A DNA stretch of 64,000 nucleotides. It comes from Apteryx mantelli. Lineage: Eukaryota > Chordata > Aves > Apterygiformes > Apterygidae. Every line of letters starts with the position of its first letter. Position 1 is the stretch's first letter. This document shows, piece by piece, positions 1 through 60,590 of the stretch. The translations under genes were made by a program, and so were the position numbers. The notes beneath the pieces are model-generated. The model was not told the DNA's origin. It saw only the letters and a list, made by a program, of their open reading frames with translations, and made no database searches. The stretch lies in assembly GCF_036417845.1 (NCBI RefSeq), contig NC_089990.1, positions 2,306,001 through 2,370,000 on the forward strand, given 5' to 3'.

Positions 1-921
1 TTCTGCTGCCGGATGAAAATGCGAAGTGAAACAGCCATTTTCATGACAAACCTGGCTGTTTCAGACTTGCTGTTTGTGTTCACCTTGCCTTTTAAAATTT
101 TTTATAATTTCAACAGGCATTGGCCTTTTGGAGACAGCCTATGCAAGATTTCTGGTACAGCTTTTCTCACTAACATCTACGGGAGCATGCTGTTCCTCAC
201 CTGCATTAGTGTTGACCGTTTCCTTGCTATCGTCTATCCATTCCGATCTCGTACCATTAGGACGAGGAGAAATTCAGCCATAGTATGTGCTGGTGTTTGG
301 ATACTGGTCCTCAGTGGTGGAATTTCAGCTTCGTTGTTCTCCACAACCAACGTCTCTAACACCAGCACAACCTGCTTTGAAGGTTTTTCCAAACGTATCT
401 GGAAAACCTACTTGTCTAAGATCACTATATTTATTGAAGTGGTAGGATTCATAATTCCTTTGCTACTCAACCTTACGTGCTCTTCTTTAGTACTCAGGAC
501 TCTTCGGAAACCTGCCACCTTGTCTCAGATTGGGACAAACAAAGAGAAAGTACTGAAGATGATCATTGTGCACGTGGCCATTTTTGTTGTGTGCTTTGTG
601 CCTTACAATTCCATACTCTTCTTGTACGCTCTCGTGAGGTCCCAAGCAATAGCAAATTGCTCCTTGGAGCGATTTGCCAGGACAATGTACCCAATCACGT
701 TGTGCATTGCAACAATGAACTGCTGCTTTGACCCATTCATCTACTACTTCACATCAGAATCCTTCCAGAAGTCTTTCAACATAAAAACCCAGATAAAAAT
801 GGATTCTCTTTTCAAGACTGAAACACCTCTAACAAAGACTGCACTACCAGCACCGCAGGACGAAATAAGTGACCAGGCTATTACGAATGGGGGAGATCCA
901 ACATCTGAATCACATTTCTAG
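1..921 (+). CDS. LPAR4: LPAR4, lysophosphatidic acid receptor 4 (3' part of coding exon, cut by window edge)
   Basis: Class A GPCR of the plasma membrane that binds lysophosphatidic acid and signals through G proteins. The frame is open from base 1 (codons F-C-C-R then [10 protein letters not shown]), so the ATG at 13 is internal and not the start. By recall of the human protein (370 aa), about 63 residues (extracellular N-terminus and most of TM1) lie outside the window; 306 codons and a stop remain. Visible: TM2 ([10 protein letters not shown]), TM3 with a conserved Cys (SLCKISG), the DRF version of the DRY motif at bases 214-222, the ECL2 Cys in TTCFEGF, TM6 CFVPYNS, and TM7 DPFIYYF. The tail [11 protein letters not shown] also matches human LPAR4. 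It lies head-to-tail with the P2RY10 pair downstream, as in the human block. There are no frameshifts. Identification by remembered family sequence is strong. Confidence 0.97.
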
Positions 922-41170: not shown

Positions 41171-44100
41171 AACACACGGAGGAGTTAAAACAGCGGCGGC
41201 ATGAAGCTACCGTTACTAGAGAAAGTACAGTTTTATAGCACGGGCGATAAAGGGTTCCCTGCCTGGTCTCAGATGTCTTTGCTAGGCACAGTTTTCTTCT
41301 TTTGCCCAATTACTCAACAAGTACCTTCTAGTTTCAAATTGTATTTGACAGTGAGGGAATTGTTGCAAATCCGTTCCTTCTGGCAGTAATTTATACCGAA
41401 AAAAAAAAAAAATCTACGTGCTGCATTGTGCAATCCACCCTGCTCAGACTGAATCGCACCAGCGGCACATGAGTCCTTGCTGGAGTCGGGGGGATGCAGC
41501 AGGACAGAATTAGAGGCAGTTGGACGTATTCTCATTCTCAAGAGCTCTGGGGCGGTTCCAGTTCATAACTCAGGCTGCAGTCTCCAGCGCAGATTGAGAT
41601 TTACCGCGATTCTTTGGCTGACACTTTTAGACCACACTTTGCAAAGGACGGCTTACTGCCGAGGCTGAAACCACCCCGAGCTGCCCCTCAGCTCCCAGGG
41701 AAGCGTGAGCAATTCGTACCGGCGGCGTTTGGCAGAAACGGATGAGGTTCAAGCTGGGTGGACCCTGAATCTGAAGGGTCACAGAGTAAATCAGCAGTGT
41801 GCTTTGGGGATAGCTTTGCGCCATCAAAACACTGCGAAGGGCGAGTCAGGGTGTGCAGCCTGTCGTGCCTCGGGCTCGTGCAGGGGAGGACTTCAGCAGT
41901 AGGCTGCTGTGTATGAACCGAGAGCGTGATTTTGTTTAAGGGCGTATTTTCTGTTGTCAAGTTGTGTGTGCCTCGGCGAAAGTGCTCAGCCCTTGGCTCC
42001 CGCGCAGACCTCACAAGCCACGGGAATCTTGTCCGCAGGGTGACTCCATGCCCGGGACAGCCCTCGTCCGGCAGAGGGACAGCGCTCGGACCAGGCTGCC
42101 TTCTGCTTGGGCGTGCAGTTTCTTCAGCTGCTAGAGCTGCAGAAGTGAAAATTAGATGAGCATTGCCAAACCAAAACATATTGTTGTTACAGATCAGGCA
42201 ACCCAGAGCTGCTCTTTTTTTTTTTTTGGAAGAAGAAAAACAGAAAAAAAAATACCCTTAACTGTAGAACTTTCCACTTCTGGCTGCAGAGGTTTCATAC
42301 CGAAGTGTGAGTGCAACAGCGTGACACACTCACAGCCGCGCAATGAGGCCAGAGTCTACAGAAAGGCATTTCTGCCTTAATTAAACCAGTTAGTTCGTCT
42401 GCTGATGTACATGACGGAAAGATATAGGACTGAGGAATGGCATTCCTGTACTTCTCAGTCCTATCAAGATGAACATCCTTTTCCTGGAAATGCCATGAAA
42501 TAATAGTTTCCAAACGTGCAGCTACAAGTAATAGCTTGCACACTTAATTCTTTCCTTATTGCAACAACCTCAGAAATACAGACTCTACTTAAAATGTAAA
42601 AAAAACCTAGTTATATACCACTGTGTTTTTTTATTACCTTTTTTTTTTTTTTTGAAATGGCATATTCTGAAAACAATGTTTCAGCAGGAGGCTGGTTTTG
42701 AAGAGCCTTTCACTGTCTCCCTGCACCATGCAAGGGAGTGTGGATAAATCAGACGGGGCATTTCAGCTCTCGACCTTCACTGTACATTGTGCAGCAAATG
42801 TCTTTGCTTCCTTAACAGCTTTGCAGGCGGAAAGTCTAATTTCAGGCAGACATTCAGTAGTATTCCTGCCCGTGCGTCCGCTTCTGCACTCACGCAGGCA
42901 GCAGGGGGACGGGGAGGGATGCGGCTCCAAACCGAGCAAGAAAAGTGGCATGAAGGGCAGATACAGAGCCATTTTATGGTCCCCTGCATAAACCAGCCCT
43001 TGTGCGTATGCCTGGGCGCATTTTAGCTATGGGGATGGTTAAATCTCACTATATTTTTATGCCTTTGCAGCGAAGTCATTCGGTATCAGAAAGCACTGTG
43101 TGCTGATGAGCCAGCAGACTTTACACTCGTATAGATTAACCGTATACGTGGTTTTGCACTGCCAGCCAGGTAATGCTGCGTTTTGTTCTAAATGGCCTGA
43201 GCGCGAAGTCGAAGGAGAGCCCTCCTCGGGCTCCGCGACGCTTTGCCTTGGGCTCATACGCGCCGTTAATCAACCAGAGGCGTTAGATTCACCGCGGGTG
43301 GTGGTGGGAGGACAACCCCGGCGTTTCTGTCTCTTGGGTTTCGTGACCTTCTAGCGCCAAGGGCTCGGGGCAGCCACCGCGGCCACCACGCCGCAGCGCC
43401 TTGGGACGCTCCTTGCTGCAAATGCCAGGAATCGGAGGACTACGCTTGGAGCATTCTTATGTGTCATATATATCAGTTATATAGGCACCCAAGAGCTTTG
43501 CGGTTTGGGCTCGTCTCAGAAGACAGCAAGACAAAGTCCGGAAAAGGCGGTGGTGCCACCTGCATGCTGGGACAGCCCTTGTCCCCTCATCTGCTCCTGT
43601 TAGAGAACTGCCTGAAAGAGGAGGGGAAAGAAGTGAAATCTTGATGAACTCTGACACCTTGTGGACAATTAGCAGAGGGAGACGAGCCGGGGGGAACCTG
43701 TTCCCGCTGCAGCCCAGGCACCGTGCGCACCGCGCGGCTGCACACAGCTTTCTGCCCCAGAAGGCGAAGGCTGAACCACGATACCACGCGTGTGCATGCA
43801 GCATCCTCCTCCTGTTTTAGCAGATATGCCCTGGGCATGTGGGTTTACCCTGAATGCCCCCGTTCGGGGAGGGCAGTGTGCAATCTAGTTGCAATCTCGC
43901 CCCATAATTGTCACATGAGGCGTAAATACAGACTAACTGGATCTGGGGGCATCCATGAGCAAACTGCTATGACTCACTTGAACTCAGACTCACTTAAGAA
44001 CACGGATCCACTGGCCAGTTTTTAAGTAATAATATTCCTCAAAATGGAACATTTTGCAAATGCACCTAACCCTCCATGATTTCAGTGGCCGCCTGGCACT

Positions 44101-46461
44101 CGTGTTTTGCAGACACATAGGTCCGTCAGCCTAACCTGGACAGCCGAGGAAACGCAAACAGCTAATAACTTCGAAAGTGCCTGCTCGATGGCTTCTTGCC
44201 AAGCAGGGATGTCACATGAAGACAGACAGCAACTGGGTGCACCACGCAGAGTTGTCACTGAGGATGGGGACATCAGCCACATGTCAGAGCTGCGGGTGAC
44301 ACAGACGGAAAGGGAGCACAAACTTCCCGCGCTCCAGAAATTCAGTCTCTAGAAACGGGATGCAATGCAAAAGATGACATTTCAGATAGGCAAAGGAGAA
44401 ATATTCCCCCTGAAAAGGAGGAATGCCTGGATGCAAAATTGAGGCTTAGTGGCCAGCTCCCGGACAGCCGGGAACACCCTCCTGCCGCCCCCGCCAAACA
44501 GAGCATCTCACCTGAGCTTGCTCCAAAGCTGCCCCAGGGACGAGGCTTAACGCCAGTGACTTGCAGCCTGGAGCAATTGTCCTAGAGGGATGGAAAGAGC
44601 CTGCGAGGGTTGCTTTGAAACACCCGGCCTCCGTATGCTCCTGTTGTCTCAGTAAAGGAGATGGGCTGGATAGAGTTTCTTGATTATGGCATTTTGTCGA
44701 TGCTTTGGTGCAACTAAAGGACGTAGCCCATTTGCTAAAGCTGATGGTGCTGCAGGAGATAAATCAGCAGGCCTTGCTTTTTGAAGACTAGGAGAAAATG
44801 AAACTTAAGGGAATGGAAGTTTGAAAAGAAAAACAAGAAAGCTGGCAGCAGGGTCTGTTGGCAGCCCCCGCAGGCGCAGTGTTTGGTGGTCCTCCTCACC
44901 ATCCGGGTACGCGAGCCAGCCATTACGGCAGCGCTGAGCTTGGACTGTGTCCTGTGCTAGGACCTGGCCACATCCAGGCATTTCTGGGGCCTGAATTACA
45001 GCCCTTCCATAACAGCCTTCAGTAGAGTCTGTACTAGCTGCCAACTTCAAGTACCACAGTGATTAACCAACTTAAAAAACAGCTATTTGTGTTCTCTGTG
45101 ACTTGAGAACTCTAAACTCTTTGCCTTTTTTTTTTTAATAACATGAAGTAAAAAAAGCATTAGTAACAGGATACGAGTTACTAATATCTACCTACAGAGA
45201 CACTTTTTCTGGCAAATGCCCCTTGTAAGCAATACTTGCAGAAAATGAGTCACAAGCAATGAATCAGTGTCTGCAGAGCCACATGAAATAGGAAGCTGAT
45301 ACTCAGTTTTTTTAACCATTAAATTAGACAAAGGAGGGAATCACTGTACCAAGAATTACGACCCTATGGGGAAATACCCAGTGATACCAAAATCTTCCTG
45401 CCTGTGTTACCCTCCTGAAAAAAGTCCCAGTTAAAAATGCTAGTGAAAGAAAGAAGACCCAACAGTCCAGTCTGCGACATTTAGCCATCTCTATTCATCT
45501 GAATCAAAGGAGAACCAGAAGCTGGAAATATCTCAAAACAAAATTATCTGATGAAGAGACGTGTTAGATGGAGGGTGCTGGGGAGATGAGAAATGGAAGC
45601 CTGTGATCAGATTAGGTCTCTGCCTTTTATTTAAACACAGGTCAGTTCACTTCAGGAGCAGTAACTACATTTACAGTCTTCAAGTCCTTCAAGCCCACTC
45701 CCTGCTCCGCTTTCCCCCGGAAGGGCCACACGGGCTCTCCCCATCATGCAAGGTGAACGGGGTCCGTCAGGTCCGCCAACACTTGACTTGACCCCAAGAC
45801 ACCCATGCAACGCCCAACCAGCAACTTCATGGCAGGTCTGATTCAGTGGCTGCCACCCACATTTTGATCTCTAGCCCATGTGGTCGTTCACACGCAGAAG
45901 CTGGGCTATGGCACATCTGCCTTTAGCTTATTGCTGGAACACCATGTGGCTTATGCCAGCTGCTGTTACCCAGGGACCCAACCATAGGTGGTCCTGAGCT
46001 GCCAGAGGAAGGGCAGCTTCTCCTACCCTTGACGTAGCGGTTTGGCACAGCTTCACCCACGCTTATGTCTTTGAGGCAGCCCCTATTTCAGCTCCTGAAA
46101 CTGGATCGCTTGTTTAAATATATTTAAGGTAGCCTGAAAATTCCCCAGTTCAGTGTGTTGCACTGCCGTGGACTCCCCGTCTGACCTTAAGGGTTGGTCT
46201 CAGCGCGTGAGCTCTCTGCTTGACGGATGGTGACAGGAGCAGAGCCTTTGGTGGGGCACGCGGAGAGCACAGCAAGGGGACTGACAGCGACAGCTCTGGG
46301 AACACTGCGGCGGTGGGAGACCTCTGAGGAGGTAGCTTTGAAGAATAAAGCGAGATGCTTTATACAAAAGACTTTTCCAAACCTCTACTTTCTACTGAAT
46401 AGTCAAATAAGAAATGCAAATGTAAATATAAAAACTATTGCAGTGCCTTTGCCTTTACAGC
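41171..46461. other. Intergenic or intron of P2RY10, no coding exon seen
   Basis: If the candidate first exon is real, this is the P2RY10 intron. It contains scattered CpG-richer patches (43,200-43,450), a hairpin at 42424-42464, and T runs at 42217-42229 and 42640-42654. No open frame shows a domain. Confidence 0.5.
42424..42464. repeat. 11-bp inverted repeat with inner palindrome
   Basis: ATAGGACTGAG (42424-42434) pairs perfectly with CTCAGTCCTAT (42454-42464). Inside lies AGGAATGGCATTCCT, itself nearly palindromic. Too short for a typical microRNA precursor; function unknown. Confidence 0.85.
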
Positions 46462-46482
46462 CTTTGTTTTTATTCCCTACAG
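46462..46482 (+). promoter_or_regulatory. P2RY10: Splice acceptor of P2RY10 coding exon
   Basis: A long pyrimidine tract ending in TTCCCTACAG, with AG at 46481-46482, is followed immediately by the conserved coding exon. The paralogue at 57.4 kb has the matching TCTCCCTACAG, supporting a shared exon boundary. Confidence 0.8.
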
Positions 46483-46484
46483 GA

Positions 46485-47507
46485 ATGACCCACCCACTCT
46501 ATCCTGCGCTGAACGTTTCCAGCAGCCCCGTGATGACGCAGAGCAACCGAACTTGTCCTGATCCCGTGATAACGTTTAAATACAGCCTGTATGCAACCAC
46601 TTACACCATCATATTCGTACCCGGGCTTCTGGCAAACAGCACTGCCTTGTGGGTGTTATGTCGCTTCATCAGCAAGAAGAACAAAGCTGTGATTTTCATG
46701 ATCAATCTGGCCATGGCTGACCTGGCTCACGTCCTCTCCCTGCCGCTGCGGATATACTACTATATTAACCACACATGGCCTTTTGGGAGGTTCCTTTGCT
46801 TACTGTGTTTCTACCTGAAGTACCTCAACATGTACGCGAGCATTTGCTTCCTCACCTGCATCAGCATCCAGCGGTACCTCTTCCTGTACCAGCCGTTCAA
46901 GGCCAAGGACTGGAAGCGGCGGTACGACGCGGCCATCAGCGCCGCGGTGTGGCTCTTCGTCGGGGCGGCTTGCTCTCCGTTTCCCATCATGCGAAACTAC
47001 GGCCTAGCCAACAGCACAAACACCTGCTTTGCAGACCTCGAGGTCCGGCAGATCGACAGCAAGGTGGCCACGGTGCTGATGACAGCGGCGGCGGAGCTCT
47101 TCGGGTTCGTGGGCCCTCTCGTTATTATTTTATTCTGCACTTGGAAAACAAAAGTTTCCCTTCGGGGATTCCAGATACCGCCGCAAAACGGCAACGAGAG
47201 GCAGAAGGCTTTACGGATGGTTTCCATGTGCGCCATCGTGTTCTTCGTGTGTTTTGCACCGTACCACATCAACTTCTTTTTCTACATGATGGTGAAAGAA
47301 AATGTTATTACAGACTGTTTCTTACGTAGCTTCACTCTTTACACTCAACCCTTTTGCTTAAGTCTTGCAAGTCTGGACTGCTGCTTGGATCCAATCCTGT
47401 ATTTCTTTATGAATTCAGAGTTTCAGGATCAGATATCAAGACACAGCAGCATGGTCATCAGGAGCCGGCTCATGAGCAAAGAAAGCGCCTCATCGTTTAA
47501 GGAATGA
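46485..47507 (+). CDS. P2RY10: P2RY10, lysophospholipid-sensing GPCR of lymphoid cells
   Basis: Class A GPCR, 340 residues from this ATG (human recalled as 339). Known in the family as a lysophosphatidylserine-type receptor of lymphocytes. Visible: N-glycosylation sites N10 and N21, TM1 (TIIFVPGLLANSTALWVL), TM2 (MINLAMADLAHVLSLPLR), TM3 ending in Q129-R130-Y131 in place of DRY, ECL2 Cys (NTCFADL), TM6 CFAPYHINF, TM7 D302-P303...Y306, and the P2RY10-specific tail SRLMSKES. The exon begins at 46483, so the ATG at 46485 lies 2 nt inside it. A second in-frame ATG at 46533 (324 aa) sits exactly 50 nt after the acceptor, the same spacing as in the paralogue, and may be the real start. The frame also stays open 86 codons upstream to an ATG at 46227, across the acceptor; I treat that as intron. 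Confidence 0.93.
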   Translation: MTHPLYPALNVSSSPVMTQSNRTCPDPVITFKYSLYATTYTIIFVPGLLANSTALWVLCRFISKKNKAVIFMINLAMADLAHVLSLPLRIYYYINHTWPFGRFLCLLCFYLKYLNMYASICFLTCISIQRYLFLYQPFKAKDWKRRYDAAISAAVWLFVGAACSPFPIMRNYGLANSTNTCFADLEVRQIDSKVATVLMTAAAELFGFVGPLVIILFCTWKTKVSLRGFQIPPQNGNERQKALRMVSMCAIVFFVCFAPYHINFFFYMMVKENVITDCFLRSFTLYTQPFCLSLASLDCCLDPILYFFMNSEFQDQISRHSSMVIRSRLMSKESASSFKE

Positions 47508-47652
47508 AAAGAAGGCTTAAAAGAGTAACTAAGCATTTCATTTGCAATCCGAGACTGTTCTGTGATGTTCATTTACCAACCGTTATGGAAGATCCTGCAA
47601 GTTTGTTTTTTCAGGGGATTTTGTGGCAGTGGAAATCTTTTGATTTACACAA

Positions 47653-47658
47653 AATAAA
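47653..47658 (+). terminator. P2RY10: Polyadenylation signal AATAAA for P2RY10
   Basis: First AATAAA after the stop codon (about 145 bases), in CACAAAATAAAAACTTG. It is followed by the TG-rich CTTGTTTAAG...GTGTTAGTAG. It implies a very short 3' UTR. Confidence 0.7.
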
Positions 47659-47689
47659 AACTTGTTTAAGACCAGCGTGTTAGTAGCCG

Positions 47690-50600
47690 ATGAGTGACCC
47701 AGCTGGCGTGACGGCGCCTGCCGACGTGATGCCCATGCCTGACCTGACCGGACTGCGGAAGTGCAGAAGGGAGCAACAGGGCTTTCGCTGGGAAACAGCG
47801 GAAACGTCCCAGCAGCTTTTTTCTAATTTCCCATCTGTAGTGGTTCTATGACCAAGCCGGAGACAGTCATACACTGACATCCACTGAAGTGTCTTCTCAA
47901 CTGGAAACATGCAGTGCACGCGAGAACCCCAAAATGGCCAATAACCGTCAGCGACTATTTCAGGTCCCTGCGCTCGGGGATGCGGCACATGAAAGGTTCG
48001 CGGCTCCCTTCAGCGCGGCAGCCTCCGTTTGCCGACTTTAGGGACACGCTACGAGTCACAACGCTTGCATTTGTTTCGTTCTCGCCGTATTTCCCCCCTC
48101 CCGGCTCGTTCATCATCTGCCTCCCCTTGCCCAGCTCTGAGCTTGCTCTCCACCGCTGCCGCAGCATCTCCACGCCGCGACTCCGCAGCCGCCCCGGGGC
48201 GCGGGACCGGCCCTTGCTCCCGACGCCTCCCGGCCCCCGCTGCCCGCTCCGCAACGGGACCGCGGGGCTCAGGAGCGCGGGGCGCCGGGAGCCCGTCTGC
48301 TCCGGACTAAGCACCGCTGCGGCTGCATTTAACGCCCCGGCGGCACCGTGCAAGTCCTCGCTCTGCTCTGCGTACGGCTGTCTTAGGCCGAGAGGGGTCT
48401 GTGATGGTTCTACTGCGAAATCCGTCCTCAGCAAAATCCGCTGAAAAATCTTTGGAAAAAGAAAGGCACCCTTGCCGAGATGATTTCACCGATCGAGCAA
48501 TGGCTAATCTCTTCAAGCAAGTTATTCACTGATATTTTTCCCTATCAGCCATTCTCATGATCTTAGCGTTTACCTTCTTATGACTTCATTAACTACGAAT
48601 ATATTAAAAGCAGTCACAAGCTGGGATTCCATTTACCCCTGAAGTGTTTTAAATAAGCCACAGCTTTTAGGCCACATTCACCCAGTTTGTGTAACTTCAA
48701 GGGTTTCAGTGCGCTGATGGCTGGGGATAGCTTTGGCACTGATTTACTCCCTTTGGAAAACCTGTGGCTTTTTAAAAGCATTCTGAGCAACCCTCAGCAA
48801 GCATCGGTGGCAGCACCCCATGTATTGCTGTAAAATACAAGAAATTTCAGAAACACTTGCTGAGTGTAATTGAAATCTAACTACTTAATTCCACTTTGTT
48901 ACATTTTGACTCAACCAAAGATTTTCTGCGTATTAGTTTTACACACAGTGAGGTGGGAAAAAGCAAACAACAGCCAGGTTTAAATAACCATGACGCCAGA
49001 GTTCCTCTAAAAGTTCCTTCTAAAACTGAAGACATACTGTTTCAATAGAATAAGCTACTGCAGTTCTCCCATTTGTAAAAAGACGATTAGGATCTATAGC
49101 ATGATGAACTTAATCTTACACGTATGTAAATGAAAGGACTGAAATGTGCTTATCTGAAGGAAATAGCTTTTAAGAACAGTGTATTCTTGCAAGTTTTTCT
49201 AGTTTTCTAGTGAAAAAACTGCCAAGTAAGTGAACAGTCCACCTCCCATTGAAGTCAATATTTCCACTGGTTTAACTGGGCAGTTTATTATGCCAGTGGT
49301 ATACATACACGTTTACACACTGCAGGTAATCCCTTTAAAACGTGAGCAGAGGTTGATGTTCAGGTATAGTTAAGCACGTATAATGCGATTCTTGCCAACT
49401 TAGCAACCTTCTCACGAGCTAGACGCTGTACAATATCGTCTGTGAATGAGACTGCAGTTTCAATGGCTGTTTTGAGGATTTTTATAGACCTTAATCACCT
49501 AGCATGTGGCTGGGAGCCGCGTACTGTAATTTCCTTCTCAAACAATTCTGCATTTATGGGGTGAAAACAAGTTGAAGACACTGCTATGGTAACTGTGTAG
49601 CTTGTACTACATTTTTCCTTCCAAAAATTAATGCTTAAAAAATAAATGCGTTTTGCCAAATGTAAGCTGAGTTTCATAGTTATCACTTATCTGCAGAGCC
49701 GAATGAGACCAGTTTCTGCATCGCCTAAATCACAGACTGGCCTTCAGGTGATTAAGTGCAGTGACCACTACCAACTTTTGTTATCCTTAAGCAAATTGCT
49801 TCCCTGTCTACAGAGAGGTTTTCACCCCAGTCAAATACGATTTTTTTTTCTGTTTTTGAACTACAACACTTAAGTTGGCTTTAGCCATGTTTTGTGGGCA
49901 GAAAGGTGCCAAAGAGCAGGACAGCTTTTCACCCTTCCTCCGCGGGAATAGGTGTGGTGCTGGAAGAGCTGTCAGTCACAACCCCGGGGCTGCCCGTGTC
50001 CCGGCACGGGGAATGACTGGTTGAAGACGACTGAACGGCGTCACCAGCTCTCCCACCCTGAACGTTGCGTTCTGGGAGGAAAGGCTTTTTGGGGAAATGC
50101 CATGGGGAGTAGGGATAACTTTTAGTGAGACCTGAGGTCCCCGGGCTCATGAGAGCAGTCATTTGGGGAGAAACACGCTCGCTCTTCTTTGTCACTTGTT
50201 CCGAGGCCGCTTTGCTCTTATCAACCCTGATTCCTGGGAAGAATGAGTCAACATGAGTATAACACATCTGGTGGCTCCAGAAGGGTGACATCCCTGTCAC
50301 CACGACAGCATCCCCAAGTACCCTCAGCCTCGACCACTCATGCTGGAGCCCTGGTCTTCCTGCCTCTTCTGCCCTCTGAGCTCCCTTAGACCCACACGAA
50401 ACCAGTCCCTTTTACAGACCACAGTAGAAAGCGGGGGCAAAACCAGTGCATGAGGTGTCCCCCTTCCCCGGGGCTTGCGCTGGGCAGAAAACACTCTGTT
50501 ACGTCCAGGGGCATCACATCCGCCAGCAAAAGGAAACGCGTTCCTCTGCAGGGTCAGCAAATGGTCATCCTATCGTAACCGATATCAGAGCGCTGATAAT

Positions 50601-52455: not shown

Positions 52456-54230
52456 TCCAAAGGAAAGGAGTTAAAGGAGGTAGAAAGAAGAAAGACACCA
52501 ATGAAGTTGGGGGTGATGGACATTTTCTTAGAAAGTAAGTGTTTTGGGAAACTCTCAACCTTAAACCATCATATTATTTCAGGAATAAAGCCTAAACCCT
52601 TAAAAGTTTTAGCCTATAGCCTTTATGGTCTCAAGGCTAATAAAATTCCCAAGGAAAGGAGGAAAATTACTACCTTCCAGTGAATTTCTACTGATATGCT
52701 TTTCAGTTTTACTTTAGTGAGTACTTCCTGGAAGATTTTTCTTTCTGTATTTTGTAGTTTTTTAGCAGGCAAATGGCAAGTGATTGCAGATAAAAGCAAA
52801 ACCAGCAGATAAAAGCAAAACCAGCTTGACTGAAGGAACGAATGCACAAATCATTATAACACACAGGTTTTGTGCAAACAGAAAAAAAGAAATCTGTGCC
52901 CGAGTCCTAAATCACGCTGCACTTTTGGATCAAATGATGTCATCGTCATTCCAGTTGTTTTAACGTCATTAACTGTACACATTTTGTGTGGCGAAGAGAA
53001 ACAAAATACAGGATTTCCTGTTCTACAGACACTGTATTGGTCTGCAGATGCCGGCAGCATTTCAGCGCTCTGAAATTTCCCTCAACATGCTGAAGTTTAA
53101 AGACGACTCTTTGGGGCTGGGATTTCGGAGAAAAGTTGTAGCAAATAAAAGCAGGAAGATTGCTCCTCCCGCTCGCTAGTATGGATGTCACCCCCCCGAA
53201 GAATGGGAGTTGCAGGAAGGTAAGCTGGATTTCTCTCCCGTTTTCTTCATAAGCTATCGCAATTCTGAGCAATATTTTCATCTGTATTTTTGCGAGAGGT
53301 CTTGCCAGACAAACGCCGGTGCAATGTCCTCGGCAGCTTGGGACAGTGGCAATTTATTCCTATTTCTCTTCATTCTGAAGGGCTGGGGAGCAGGGAGCAG
53401 GGCATCAGAGCACAAGCCTGCTATGTGCAGCACTAAATAGGGAAAGCCTGTTTTACGGAAAGTACTTCAAAACCATTCTGATTGACAGAAGCTACTACCA
53501 CCGATCCGTTCTGTTTATGTGTTTTCTATTAGTGCCTGGATTGAAAAAGCAAATGAAATTACTGCTTAAAACAAAAGGTCCGGAAAGCCTCCACTGCTTA
53601 AAATAAGAAGCTTTAGAAAAACTTATTTCAAGCCAAAAGCAGATTTTTTTTTTTTCTTTTACTAGACCGCTTTTCCTTCCAGCATCCAAGGATTGGAGCA
53701 GATGCGCGGGGGGACGCTCTGCCGTAGGGAGCGGGCTCCGGTTTGGCCGAGGGCTCCCCGAAGCCGGGGCTCCTCGGCGGCACAGTTTGGAGGGCAGCGT
53801 CGTAATTCTTTAAAGAACAAATACATGGAAAAGATGAGGGCAAGCATGCCCGTAAATCTGGGAGCAGTAAATGCAATACCGCAGAAATGTAGGGCTGGGT
53901 GGGGCCCGCAGTGATTCAGAATAACCAGGCAATTTTCAATAATGACAGCCGCGTACGGAGCTAGAAAAAGAAATTGCTAACACACTCAGAAAAAGAAACA
54001 CGGGTATTACCATCGCTGCCTTAAGCTGCTAACTAATTGCAAAAATCAGCTGTTGATTAAAAAATTGCAGGGCTACAGCCACAGCCAGCGCTCCGATTCT
54101 TCCGGTGGCAAAACCTGTCTGCCCTCCCTCTTTGCAGCTAGACTGCAAAGACCCCAGGACAGGAATTCATTTTAGCCTGCAGCTGGATAAAACTCAGCAA
54201 AAAAAAAAAAAAAAAGAAAAAAGCAAAGCA
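52456..54230. other. Non-coding, AT-rich; possible 5' exon donor
   Basis: No coding exon seen. A donor-like AAG|GTAAGC with GT at 53220-53221 could belong to an untranslated exon of the downstream receptor, but there is no promoter evidence. A-rich run at 54201-54215. Confidence 0.4.
52787..52824. repeat. Perfect 19-bp tandem duplication
   Basis: CAGATAAAAGCAAAACCAG occurs twice head-to-tail (52787-52805 and 52806-52824) with no difference, so the duplication is recent. Confidence 0.95.
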
Positions 54231-54269
54231 ATTTAGGAGTTGCAAGAGGTATTTTCTGCAAGTTTCAGA

Positions 54270-55960
54270 AAGCCACCGCACCGAAAGCTGGCCGAAGCGC
54301 GGGGGACGGGGGCCTGGGAAGAAGCTCTGCCCCGAGCCAGCGTCCCCGCTGCAAACCGCGGGAGGACGCGGAGGGACTCGGGGCGAGGGACAGGTGAGAG
54401 AAAGTTCCCCGCTGAGCCCAAACCGAGAAACAAGAGTACTAAATAAAACATTCGCTGTCTCAGGAAGTGCTGCTCTGAGTAAGGCGGCACCGAGCGCAGG
54501 CTGGCAGCGGCCGGGCGGGCGGCGAGGGCCGCGCTCTCGCCCCGTGCGCTAGCAAGCGGCAGCAAATGCAAACCGAAAGCGTCGGCTCGCAAGAGCGACA
54601 CGCTGGCGCTGCCGGCTCGGCACGGAGACCAAACACCGAAAAGAGCCCGGGTGCCGTCGCGGGCCGGCAGCCCGCCCCGGGGAGCAGCGTCAGGACTCGG
54701 GCCGGGGCGCGGGGAGGGATGGAGGGAGAGCGACGCAGGAGCCGTGCGGAGAAGAGCTCCCCCATGACATCGTCTCCCGATTTTCTGCGGAAAAGTGAAG
54801 GCGAAGCTTCACAATTTCTTGCCAGGCTCAAAAAAACCTCAGTGCCAGGAGCATGGATCGGGCTGCGGCAAAGCGGCGCCCAGGACATGTGATGGCTGGA
54901 GAGGTTCCCGTTCCCGTGGAGGGGGAAGGTGCCGGCTCGTGGCTGCCTCTGCTCATCCCGGCATGAAACTCCGGGCCGGAGCGCCGTCGGATGAGCACGG
55001 CTGCCTGGGACTTGTGGTCACCAGCCCGTCCTCGAGGCGCCAGCCCCTTCCTTCGGGGTTTCGGGTGGGCAGCGAGAGTGCGGGAACCTCGCAGGATCCC
55101 AGGAAATGAGGTTTTGCTTCTCGCCGCCACCTCGAGCTGGGCGTCCCCGGCCCCTGCCTGCTCCAGCGGCTCCGGTTTGGTAGGGAAAGGAGAAACCCTC
55201 TGACCGGAGGTCACCAGGCCAGGCGCCCGCAGCGGCCAGAAGGCACGTTCGTGTGGCGGGCAGCCTGCCCGGGGGTTTCACTTCGCTGTTTCGCTTTTAC
55301 ATCCCAAAAGAGGAGAAATAAGTGAGCAGGAGAACCCAGTTTCGCAAGGACTTAACTCACGAATCGAGACGTGAGCGCCGCACGAACGCATTGCAAAAGC
55401 CGGTGGTGCTTTTGAGCAGCGCTGCCGGCCCGGGCTTTGGGTCATGCTCCGCTCCACGCAGCGGCCGGCTGCGTCCAGCCGTGGGCGCTCCGGTCTGAAT
55501 CCAGGGCACCCGGCGCGGGGAAACCTGCTCTTTGCTCCAGCTTCCCGCAGCAGCATGAAGCTCTTCCGCGAGGCCGGTCCCGGTCCCCACCGCGGGCGAT
55601 CTCCTGGGGGACGGCAGGCACCGCGCTGGGGGACGTCCGGCAGCGCTCGCGGCTGCTGCTCCGGCGCCGAGAGGCTCCGTGACGCGGCGGCACCGGCTCT
55701 GGGGGCTCCCGTCCCCCCCCACGAAACGAGGAAGGTGCCCACGGCCACAAGCTGTCCGTGACACCTCGTGGTCGCTTACGGACCGCGTGTCCAGCACCCC
55801 GTCCCCAAGAAGGGAATTGCACCGCTCTGTCCCAAGTGCCGCTGCAGGCCCTGCCGGGTTTGGTAGCATCGCTGCCCAAAAAGCAGAGCTGCCCTACGGG
55901 CTTTGCTCAGGAAAAGCGAGATTCATTAAATTCATCACGTCGTGGAGACCTGGGCGAGCA
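54270..55960. promoter_or_regulatory. Large CpG island upstream of the second P2RY10-type gene
   Basis: About 1.7 kb of CpG-dense DNA. A donor-consistent CAG|GTGAGA (GT at 54394-54395) on the + strand could end an untranslated first exon for the gene at 57.5 kb. The many overlapping open frames (up to 170 codons, both strands) are what GC-rich DNA gives by chance, and none has a domain. Confidence 0.5.
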
Positions 55961-57400
55961 CCTATGAACCACGCATGACCCACAGATACCCTCAGCCTTG
56001 ACAATAGGAGGCGAAACGGGTAAACGGATGAAACGAATTTCTGGTCTAACTAACAGACAAATGTATTTATCTTCCTCCGTGTCCTGAGCTGTTGCTGGAA
56101 GATAATTCCTGTTGCTACAGCACGACGCCTGCGTAATGCGCCATGAGCACAGAAATTGAGTTAGCAGCACTGACAGATAGGCTGTGTGCATTCGCTCAGC
56201 TATTAGTTTTTAAATCCACTCTTGAATCTGGAGCCAGAGCGCTGATAGATCTGTCTGCACCTCTCCATCACCGGCCCCCGCCGCAGCCCGCCGTCCGCCA
56301 GCACCGTCGTTACTCACGGCGATCGCTGCCCTTGCAGCCGATTCGCATCGAGCCTCCGCTCAGCTCCGAACGGCAGCGGCTCAGTCTGCTCCGCGTCTGC
56401 GTTTACTTATGGTCCCTCCCGAATCACCTGGAGACCTACCAGAGAGCACCAGTCGGACAGGAGTTTGGCAGAAAATTGCATGCAATAAAAGCCAAACGGT
56501 CCTGGAAGAAACCCCCGCGGAGCTGAAGCAGTGGCCTGGCATTACTAGCAGAGGACCTGGCGCACGACGGCAGCGCGAGGATGCGGGAGGGCAGGATGGC
56601 CAGCTGCCCTCGCGCAGAGCAAGCCTGCTCTGAGCCATGTGGAAGACGCCCTGGATCAATGCCACCAGGAGAGGTCGGGCTCTGCACCCTTCCCAACGCA
56701 CGTGTGCTCTCTAGCCATATACGCATGCACCCCTACATAAAATAAATAAATAAACATAAATAACTTTTTCGTAAGTCCACTCTAGCTCAGTCCCTTCCAG
56801 GCTTGAGGCTCTACCTAGCTGGTACTTCTGTGCTTCTGAGCTCAGGATGAGGGACAGGAAAGACGATTTAGACGTGGCTATGACGGCTGGGATGTGCACC
56901 GGCTCACGACGCCCCCAACCAGGCTGCCAGTCCAAGCTGAGAGAATTTTCAGTCCTCTTTGACCATAAGTTTGATCTGTTTCTCAGGGGAGTCAATCACC
57001 TACCTGTTCCCTGCTATCTCTCTTTTGAGATATATATACACACACACATATATATGTATATATATATACACATACATATATACACATATATATACTGTAC
57101 ATAGGACCATAGCACTCAAGGACCCTCCAAGAGCTTAAGAAGCAGCAGGGTACAGGGCAATGCAGCAATACACCAGTTTATCCATTCCAGTGAGGTCAAA
57201 CACTTGAGGTCCAGCTGTGGCCGACTGGACAGTTTGCTGCACAGAAATACCCACCGGGGCAGGTGGACCTTTCCATGAGAACATTATAATCTCAATGCAT
57301 CGACATTAGGAGCCATCTCACTTAAAAATTATGTTTCTGTACTGAAGTGCATTTATATAATGTGGGAAATTACTGAAAAGTTTTGGGCTTTACAACATCT
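55961..57400. other. Intron or upstream DNA of second P2RY10-type gene
   Basis: A smaller CpG-rich patch at 56,240-56,640, an AAAT-type run near 56737-56763 and the TA/CA microsatellite at 57.03 kb. No coding exon is supported. Confidence 0.5.
57030..57098. repeat. TA/CA compound microsatellite
   Basis: Alternating TATATA, CACACA and TATATGTATA blocks over about 70 bp, ending about 370 bp upstream of the receptor exon. Confidence 0.95.
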
Positions 57401-57417
57401 GTTTTTTCTCCCTACAG
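57401..57417 (+). promoter_or_regulatory. Splice acceptor of the P2RY10-like coding exon
   Basis: A pyrimidine tract TTTTTTCTCCCTACAG ends with AG at 57416-57417. Exactly 50 nt of 5' UTR then precede the ATG. Close match to the P2RY10 acceptor. Confidence 0.8.
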
Positions 57418-57467
57418 AAACCCTCCATTCACCTTAGTTGTCTCTTGAGTCAAGAGATTCAGTCGAG

Positions 57468-58583
57468 ATGGAGAGCAACGCGTCCTCTGGGAACTGTACT
57501 GATCCCCAGATGTCCTTTCAGTCCACCCTGTATGCAGTCACTTACACCATCATATTCGTACCCGGGCTTCTGGCAAACAGCGCTGCCTTGTGGGTGTTAT
57601 GTCGCTTCATCAGCAAGAAGAGCAAAGCTGTGATTTTCATGATCAACTTGGCCGTGGCTGACCTGGCTCATGTTCTCTCTCTGCCTTTACGAATGTATTA
57701 CTACATAAACCATACGTGGCCCTTTGGAAGCTTTCTTTGCCAGGTGTGTTTCTACCTGAAGTACCTCAACATGTACGCGAGCATTTGCTTCCTCACCTGC
57801 ATCAGCATCCAGCGGTACCTCTTCCTTCTCCACCCGTTCAAGGCCAAGGACTGGAAGCGGCGGTACGACGCGGCCATCAGCGCCGCGGTGTGGCTCTTCG
57901 TCGGGGCGGCTTGCTTACCGCTGCCCATCGTGAGGAGCCCGGCCTTATCCAACGCCACAAACACATGCTTTTCAGACCTAGGCGTGAAGCAAATGACGCC
58001 AGGAGCCTCCATCGCTTTGGTGGCGGTTGCGGAGCTATTTGGGTTTGTGATCCCCTTGGGTATCATTGCCTGCTGCACGTGGAAGATGAGGCAGTCCTTG
58101 CAGGACTGTCAAACGCAGCTGCAAAACACCAGTGAGAAGCAGAAAGCTTTGCGAATGGTCTTAATGTGCGCCGCCGTGTTCTTCATATGCTTCACCCCAT
58201 ACCATATCAACTTCCCGTTATTTATGATGGTGATAGAGAACATCATCAAAGACTGTGCCGTTCACAGGAGCACGCTCCGCTTTCACCCCATCTCCCTCTG
58301 CCTCGCGAGCCTGAACTGCTGCCTGGATCCTGTCCTCTACTACTTCATGACATCCGAGTTTCAGGATCAATTGCTGCAACACAGCTGTGCTGCCCTGAGG
58401 TCTCGGTTTGCACGCAAAGGGAGCAGCTTCTCCGCTAGGGAGACCAGCGACAATATTCATATGAAAAAGCGAAGTTTTCCACGTTTCAAGTTTTGGTCCC
58501 TTCCAAAGTTCTTTGGTCGAATAAACAGCATGGAAATTCCTCCAATGCCACCAGATGAGCTTTTGTTAGAGTCCATCTCTTGA
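57468..58583 (+). CDS. P2RY10-like GPCR, tandem paralogue with extended C-terminal tail
   Basis: Class A GPCR of 371 residues, clearly a duplicate of the P2RY10 gene 11 kb upstream. The ATG at 57468 has a good Kozak context (GAGATGG); an open extension before it starts at TTG and is disregarded. Visible: N-glycosylation sites N4 and N9, the shared TM1-TM2 block, Q115-R116-Y117 in place of DRY, ECL2 Cys (NTCFSDL), TM6 CFTPYHINF, and TM7 D287-P288...Y291. After TM7 the tail is about 46 residues longer than in P2RY10, basic in its middle (KKRSFPRFKFW), Pro-rich (MEIPPMPP) and ending DELLLESIS, where D-E-L-L-L fits a DxxLL dileucine signal. It may be the functional counterpart of the human pseudogene P2RY10BP; that is inference. 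Ligand unknown. Confidence 0.92.
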   Translation: MESNASSGNCTDPQMSFQSTLYAVTYTIIFVPGLLANSAALWVLCRFISKKSKAVIFMINLAVADLAHVLSLPLRMYYYINHTWPFGSFLCQVCFYLKYLNMYASICFLTCISIQRYLFLLHPFKAKDWKRRYDAAISAAVWLFVGAACLPLPIVRSPALSNATNTCFSDLGVKQMTPGASIALVAVAELFGFVIPLGIIACCTWKMRQSLQDCQTQLQNTSEKQKALRMVLMCAAVFFICFTPYHINFPLFMMVIENIIKDCAVHRSTLRFHPISLCLASLNCCLDPVLYYFMTSEFQDQLLQHSCAALRSRFARKGSSFSARETSDNIHMKKRSFPRFKFWSLPKFFGRINSMEIPPMPPDELLLESIS

Positions 58584-59640
58584 AATACAAGACATTTCCC
58601 TCTGTGTAGGTGCTTCTCAGAGCTTGAATGAAGATTGCATTAGGTCTCCAAATACGTGTCGAATTACCCTTGTGTGCAACAGGTGCAAGAGTCTGACACA
58701 GAATGACATTTCGATGAAAACACTTTCACAGTTGTGTTGTTGCTATTAGTGACTCTTTGACCTACTGTGGTCTCTATTATGTTACTGTTAATATATTTGA
58801 AACAGCCCTCACTAAAATCGGTATTTTTCCCACGCTGAACTGCAGCCAGGTTTGGTTCTCTACAATTCCTATCACTTCTGTGGAGTCCCGCAGGAAAGGG
58901 GAATATTTCTGAACCACAAAAAAGTGTATCTATATATTCATCATTCTTGAAAACCCTTCTAAACCCTGGCTTACAACCAGCCAGCTCTGCCCTCAACAGA
59001 GGTACCACCAGGTGGAATTACAGCACTGCCTGCAGCTGCGTGCGTCCAACTAAAATTGCCTGCGCTGCGCTCTCATTAGGCTCTAGATCCGGACAGTTAA
59101 CTATCTCCATGCAGAACGAACCTCCTTCCACTGAGGACTTAACCTAGGCTAGACTGCAGGACTATGACGTTACCAGCAAACACCAAGCCAGCAGCGTTAA
59201 CCCATACCCACGTCAGGACGAAAGGGAGTTTTTCAGACAAGCTGAGTTACGTTGGCTGAGTTGCCTCTATTGAAGAAAACCACCCGGATCTAAGCGAGGG
59301 AGTCCGTGAGGCTGAAGCGGTCATGGGGGATGAATACGTGAAGGATGCCTGTAACGGGATACGCCGAGGGCGAGGTGGGAGAGGGAACGGGGAGTCCTTC
59401 CCGCGGCACGTTCGCGCGGGAGCCGCCGCTGCTGGGGAGCTCCCGTCCCGTGTCGTCGTTGCGAGTCTCGTGTTACCTGGCGTTTTGCTAAAGCCTCTGC
59501 TCGTAGATTAGGATGTTACACGAGCCTCTCGGTTTTGCCTTAAAGAGCAAAAACGTTTCCAGCCCCCGCTGGTTACCCGAAGTTTACAGAGCTGATCCGA
59601 GCGCATCCTTAAGGCTTCAGGCTCGGGAGGAAATAAAATT
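58584..59640 (+). other. 3' UTR and flank of P2RY10-like gene (inferred)
   Basis: AT-rich DNA follows the stop codon. The first canonical AATAAA is at 59632-59637, about 1.05 kb downstream. AT-rich DNA ends near 59,300, where CpG-rich sequence begins, so an earlier non-canonical signal is possible. Confidence 0.4.
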
Positions 59641-60590
59641 ATCCCAACGCGTTATTTCGGCATTGCGGGGATTATTTTAAGCGCGACGACTTGTAAATAA
59701 CCTCACCGTCTCGGGGAGCTCCCGCAGACGCCGCAGAGGTGGGAATCACCCGCTGGGGACCGGCGCTCGTGGCGTGAAGCCCAGCCCGGACCGGAGCGCG
59801 GGAGACCGGCCGCAGTGCACCCGTCTAAGGGATATTAGAGGCGTCTCCGAAAACGCCCCAGCACAGGCTGGGCGCAGCCGCTCCTCCCGGGACGGGCTGC
59901 CCGAGCCCAGCCCCGGCCCGAGGCGCCGGGCGAGCGGACCGAACGCGGAGCTCGGTGCTTCAGACGCGGCGGCGGGAGGCGCACGGCGCTCCGGGGAGCA
60001 GGGCGCCCGCTGGGCGGGAATCACCAGCACAGGGAAGGAGAAGTGACGGTTTGCGCCGAATCCCCTCTTCTCCGCAGCGCGTTTTTCGTGGGCAGCTGTA
60101 TTTGGCCTTTCTGCTAACCAGGCATCATCTCTGATTTTAAAGCCACGGTATCGCCCCCAGAAGGACCCTTCTGCTCGCGTCCCGCTGGAGCGGAGAGCGG
60201 CTCAGGAAGGCCGAGCAGAGCCCCATGACCATCCTGGCCCCCCGGGACCGTCCCGGCCCCACTGGCCGGCGATGTGGACCGGGGCGTCGAGGGTTGCAAC
60301 GCCAAAAGGATTGCTTAAGCAAACGCAGGCAGAGGATTTCTGAAAGTTAGCCTCCCACGTGTGAGAAAACAGCTCTGCTGCTAATCGGATGCACGTTTGC
60401 AGCCCCTGCTGCCTTTCTGGTAACTGGCAGATCTGGCCGCGCCGTTCGCCGCGCGCGCTGCCAAAGCTGTTCCCGGAGAGAGGAGAGGAGGTCCAGGCGG
60501 CCCGAGGAATCGGCTTTGGTGCCTGCAGCACGCGGGAGACCGGCAGGAAAGCTGCTGCCGTGCCGATCAGCCTGTCCCTAGCTAGCAGAG
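59320..60590. promoter_or_regulatory. CpG-rich block downstream of P2RY10-like gene
   Basis: CpG-dense DNA, densest at 59,700-60,300. Overlapping open frames on both strands are featureless. May be a promoter for a gene beyond the window, or GC-biased intergenic DNA. Confidence 0.45.
59632..59637 (+). terminator. Possible polyadenylation signal AATAAA
   Basis: Nearest canonical hexamer after the P2RY10-like stop codon. Its setting in CpG-rich DNA makes assignment uncertain. Confidence 0.3.

Follow-up and report, generated by a model that had tools for sequence, protein, structure and literature searches.

Two tandem P2RY10-like receptor genes in the 64,000-nucleotide stretch of Apteryx mantelli DNA analyzed here (the window) very probably exchanged short tracts recently by non-allelic (interlocus) gene conversion, a reading to which we assign a probability of roughly 0.87. 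This reading is supported by sharply bounded blocks that lack most silent differences and lie beside a segment in which the protein is conserved and the silent sites are saturated. In the proposed mechanism, repair of a break in one exon would have used the copy 10.9 kb away as its template. Copying would have extended over about 110 bp in block 1 and about 170 bp in block 2, and the intervening 98 bp would either never have been copied or have been restored later. We infer the repair mechanism, the recency of the exchange and its possible recurrence in block 2. All features described below are on the + strand, except where indicated.

Two P2RY10-like receptor genes in tandem

Copy A (46485..47507) is an open reading frame in a single coding exon, with 340 residues from the ATG at 46485. 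This start codon directly follows a splice-acceptor-like CCCTACAG, and an alternative ATG is found at 46533. Copy B (57468..58583) is an open reading frame of 371 residues from its likely ATG at 57468 and is located 10.9 kb downstream of copy A in identical orientation. Each copy has a 7tm_1 match, which identifies it as a rhodopsin-family receptor. The top match among solved structures is in both cases the P2RY10 chain of PDB entry 8kgg, which we take to be the human protein, with 469.7 bits for copy A and 453.6 bits for copy B; the corresponding GPR174 scores are 320.9 and 344.9 bits. Both copies are thus nearer to P2RY10 than to its closest paralogue, GPR174 (in rounded bits, 470 versus 321 for A and 454 versus 345 for B).

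The 46 C-terminal residues of copy B (58443-58580) extend past the end of copy A, and this extension is absent from the solved P2RY10 chain (339 residues). A further rhodopsin-family receptor gene with a 7tm_1 match, presumably LPAR4, is found at the start of the window (13-921), in the same orientation and about 45 kb upstream of copy A.

Upstream of copy A, the end of the intron with its splice-acceptor-like site (46432..46485) is 72% identical to 57367-57420 over 54 bases. Since similar acceptor-like sites precede both coding exons, the pair looks like the product of a DNA-level tandem duplication rather than of retrocopying.

Near-identical blocks and the diverged middle

The two copies were compared base by base, and then codon by codon, at an ungapped offset of 10,941. 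This offset had been proposed in an earlier, sequence-only reading of the same DNA, and the base comparison bears it out. Block 1 (46598..46705) is a near-identical tract that differs from its partner in copy B (57539..57646) at 2 of 108 bases, 46641 and 46681, both of which change the amino acid as that reading had claimed. The divergent middle segment (46706..46803 in copy A, 57647..57744 in copy B) carries 24 differences in 98 bases, 17 of them silent, and base and codon comparison reproduced the earlier counts exactly. Block 2 (46804..46974), also near-identical, pairs with 57745..57915 and differs at 4 of 171 bases. The four differences that had been described are present (46886, 46887, 46888 and 46892); they occupy three codons, however, and not two. 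The accompanying statement that the blocks contain no synonymous change at all was wrong by one, as 46886 is a silent CTG/CTT difference (Leu/Leu). These four differences are confined to a seven-base island (46886..46892; 57827..57833 in copy B) that contains the one silent Leu, followed by YQ in copy A versus LH in copy B. When the island is omitted, none of the 82 bases on either side differs (0/164 in all).

According to a topology inferred from the receptor fold, block 1 spans TM1 to the start of TM2, the middle segment spans TM2, ECL1 and the top of TM3, and block 2 spans TM3, the QRY motif, ICL2 and TM4.

A two-state segmentation agreed with the base comparison on the blocks and their partners in copy B, and placed the outer ends at 46598, 46705, 46804 and 46974 at all four switch rates. 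The tracts therefore end sharply within alignable sequence. Block 2 was itself split at 4/4 switch rates, with the 7-bp stretch as a separate divergent island. This segmentation describes the island as a remnant, which is a description and not a proof; the island may have arisen later by clustered mutation, or it may be what remains between two identical 82-bp tracts. The left end of block 1 is defined by amino-acid-changing differences in the variable N-terminus, because the 5' flank (46557-46598) has no silent difference in its six degenerate same-residue codons (0/6). In the same interval, the Nei-Gojobori count attributes 2.0 silent differences to codons with more than one change.

Silent differences were counted from 46557 on, in codons for degenerate residues that A and B have in common, with residue-changed codons left out. 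Only 1 of 82 such codons differs inside the blocks, versus 59 of 127 outside (Fisher P 6e-15, for blocks picked after the fact). By segment, the differing codons number 0/31 in block 1, 16/28 in the middle, 1/51 in block 2, 43/93 in the 3' part and 0/6 in the 5' flank. The longest runs of identical codons are 37, 28 and 27, and the next longest is 5. A run as long as the longest appeared at a frequency of 5.5e-5 in 200,000 codon shuffles, whose model has no autocorrelated rates, and the two longest runs were never matched jointly. Both the silent-site contrast (1/82 versus 59/127) and the shuffles (0/200,000) thus describe tracts with far fewer silent differences than their flanks. Fourfold-degenerate sites agree with the all-codon result, at lower strength: 0/13 differ in block 1, 7/14 in the middle, 1/22 in block 2, 17/33 in the 3' part and 0/3 in the 5' flank. 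When these sites were shuffled, the longest run was equalled at a frequency of 0.0077, and both top runs together in 1 of 100,000 shuffles.

The middle segment serves as an internal control, with 29 of 34 residues conserved and silent sites that are saturated. The argument that purifying selection on the protein cannot erase silent differences in bounded blocks therefore holds, as the middle conserves its protein yet differs at 16/28 degenerate codons. Protein conservation thus fails to explain the blocks, and the earlier reading's interpretation of the pattern as gene conversion is supported.

Third-position composition distinguishes the two blocks. The GC3 of block 2 is 0.95 in copy A and 0.93 in copy B, versus 0.64 and 0.69 elsewhere in the copies, and such values were reached in 0 of 20,000 permutations for copy A and at a frequency of 0.00015 for copy B. 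The GC3 of block 1 is 0.69 and is not raised (permutation P 0.63 and 0.81). GC-richness, which had been put forward as a mark of biased conversion, is accordingly present in block 2 and missing from block 1, whose GC3 is ordinary. It is thus for block 2 alone that the GC bias would support biased or repeated conversion.

Additionally, positions 46804-46974 contain 15 CpG dinucleotides in 171 bp, with an observed/expected ratio of about 1 versus 0.52 for the window, and this CpG-rich coding patch is found in both copies. The direction of transfer was also sought in third-position composition. The middle is GC-richer in A (10 versus 6) and the 3' part is GC-richer in B (42 versus 27); since the GC-richer copy switches between the two segments, no donor direction can be inferred.

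Age of the duplication and alternative explanations

A blastn comparison of 42001-50000 with 53001-60500 (word size 7, E 1e-3, low-complexity filter on) returned a single match, 46549-47431, with 78.6% identity over 884 bp, blocks included. With one match, and with the 72% identical acceptor region alone beyond it, the flanks appear diverged and the duplication old. Protein comparison points in the same direction. In an alignment of four proteins, the 205 gap-free residues outside the blocks give an identity of 62% between the copies, and of 63% and 62% between each copy and the outgroup P2RY10 (8kgg). For the 91 residues inside the blocks, the corresponding values are 96% between the copies, and 80% and 81% to the outgroup. 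The copies are therefore as distant from each other as from the outgroup outside the blocks and far closer inside them, such that an old duplication followed by a recent exchange is probable. Moreover, among sites that vary across the three P2RY10 sequences, residues common to A and B and absent from the outgroup make up 15/19 block sites versus 23/109 elsewhere (P 2e-6). Maximum-likelihood trees of the four proteins, with P2RY10 and GPR174 as outgroups, gave no resolved topology for the blocks, the middle, the rest or the 3' part, and in the blocks tree the A+B grouping scored 0.1 log units below the best-scoring grouping.

Provided that rates were similar, the identities outside the blocks suggest that the duplication dates from about the time when this species and the outgroup lineage diverged; the pair may also be younger and have evolved fast. 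At an assumed rate of 1.9e-9 per site per year per lineage, the 2 to 6 differences counted in 272-279 bp correspond to a conversion age of about 2 to 6 My, with intervals (0.2-12 My together; 0.1-25 My from the single silent change) that are too wide for use. P2RY10B is described as a mammal-specific duplication in the available text of PMC6504862, and that text of the survey mentions no duplication of P2RY10 in birds.

The lengths of the tracts fit gene conversion, since they fall inside the range of 50 to several hundred bp that the accessible part of PMC3924818 gives for most tract-length estimates. Other observations count against it. An identity of just 78.6% across the 884 bp is low for efficient conversion; GC3 is not raised in block 1; the four differences in 7 bp of block 2 require a separate cause; and the protein trees gave no resolved topology, with A+B not the best-scoring grouping in the blocks. 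In a search of the window for a third source copy, with the blocks and the middle as queries, the only other match at E < 0.001 was a 38-bp match to block 2 (172-209), which belongs to the receptor gene at the window start. No relatives of the copy A protein, the one query used, were found in viral contigs.

The exchange may alternatively have taken the form of one 377-bp tract (46598-46974), in which the 98-bp middle was put back afterwards, either through patchy repair of the heteroduplex or because an unconverted allele recombined with the converted one. Such a course is a tentative second choice among the forms that conversion could have taken. It is consistent with blocks that are similarly low in differences (2/108 and 4/171, or 0/164 without the island) and are only 98 bp apart, although the repair machinery would have to tolerate and then restore 24 mismatches in 98 bases. 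The present data fit one tract and two events alike.

An artefact of assembly or polishing, with reads of one copy overwriting the other copy in the more similar stretches, could produce blocks of about this size, as short reads are about as long as the blocks. A copy-paste error, however, should leave zero differences. Assembly error is therefore unlikely because the blocks hold six, and the sharp ends and the two reading frames, both of which remain open, also speak against it.

Selection on the DNA itself, through an overlapping frame, an exonic regulatory element or a structured RNA, is very unlikely to have frozen the silent sites of the blocks. Block 2 is indeed crossed by an open alternative frame in copy A (46769-47329) and in copy B (57662-58135), and block 1 of copy B lies within a 52-codon + strand frame (57503-57661). 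The frame across block 2, however, passes the block edge and continues into the diverged 3' part, where 43/93 codons differ; the edges of this block are therefore not explained by overlapping coding. Copy A has no alternative frame of at least 50 codons across the whole of block 1; a - strand frame at 46470-46655 covers the block in part. A search of the whole window against Rfam at gathering thresholds gave no match, and an overlapping gene or RNA element is judged unlikely from the extents of the frames and the absent Rfam match.

The pattern can hardly be due to chance or to a locally varying mutation rate, and no point in favor of either was found. The shuffles (0/200,000, with autocorrelated rates outside the shuffle model) exclude simple chance, and the two near-identical blocks are separated by a saturated 98-bp segment.

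Receptor function and comparison with known systems

The residues that form the lysophosphatidylserine (LysoPS) pocket of GPR174 and are reported to be conserved in P2Y10, in the part of PMC9950150 available to us, are R2.60, Y2.64, Y3.33, R4.64, an ECL2 F, Y6.51 and K6.62. Copy A keeps all seven (7/7) and copy B keeps six (6/7), with Ile in place of K6.62. The codon at this site is AAA (Lys) at 47295-47297 in copy A and ATA (Ile) at 58233-58235 in copy B. P2RY10 and GPR174 both carry Lys at this position of the pocket (K257, 6.62, in GPR174).

A further reading, which we regard as speculation and as rather doubtful, is that repeated conversion homogenized the TM1-TM4 part while selection protected copy-specific residues in two divergent islands. 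These islands would be the top of TM3 (LL versus QV) and the two residues before ICL2 (YQ versus LH, GPR174 positions 121-122). If this were true, the twin receptors would share a core but differ in ligand entry or G-protein coupling, and the loss of the LysoPS-pocket Lys 6.62 from copy B would fit such divergence.

Taken as gene conversion, the P2RY10 pair offers a clean single-exon example between old receptor paralogues, with a built-in control between the tracts. It also has a practical consequence, in that trees or orthology calls made from the converted TM1-TM4 parts can make the pair seem to be young duplicates. The general point, that tandem GPCR genes undergo conversion, is not new, and the case is an ordinary one of a well-known process. 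Among the papers searched, none turned up for P2RY10 or P2Y10 together with gene conversion. For tandem GPCR genes in general the process is established, and the P2RY10 pair is a new example of it.

The chemokine receptor pairs CCR2/CCR5, CCR1/CCR3 and CXCR1/CXCR2 are likewise neighboring class A immune receptor genes for which sequence exchange has been reported, according to the accessible text of PMC2880985 and PMC2684142, the latter citing Shields 2000 for its statements. The chemokine receptor cases in these texts were demonstrated with paralogues from several species, whereas the P2RY10 case is one pair in one sequence. The mammalian pairs BMP8A/B, DDX19A/B and TUBG1/2, as presented in the available part of PMC2720389, similarly contain old, bounded near-identical regions with raised GC, third positions included. 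Those regions cover exons and introns, in contrast to the P2RY10 tracts (108 and 171 bp), which are within one exon and of which one is GC-rich. The GOT1p1/GOT1p2 genes of Tigriopus californicus were studied in several divergent populations, and the P2RY10 pair in one sequence; in both, regions of high divergence persist between converted stretches, for the Tigriopus genes according to the abstract of PMC3728101.
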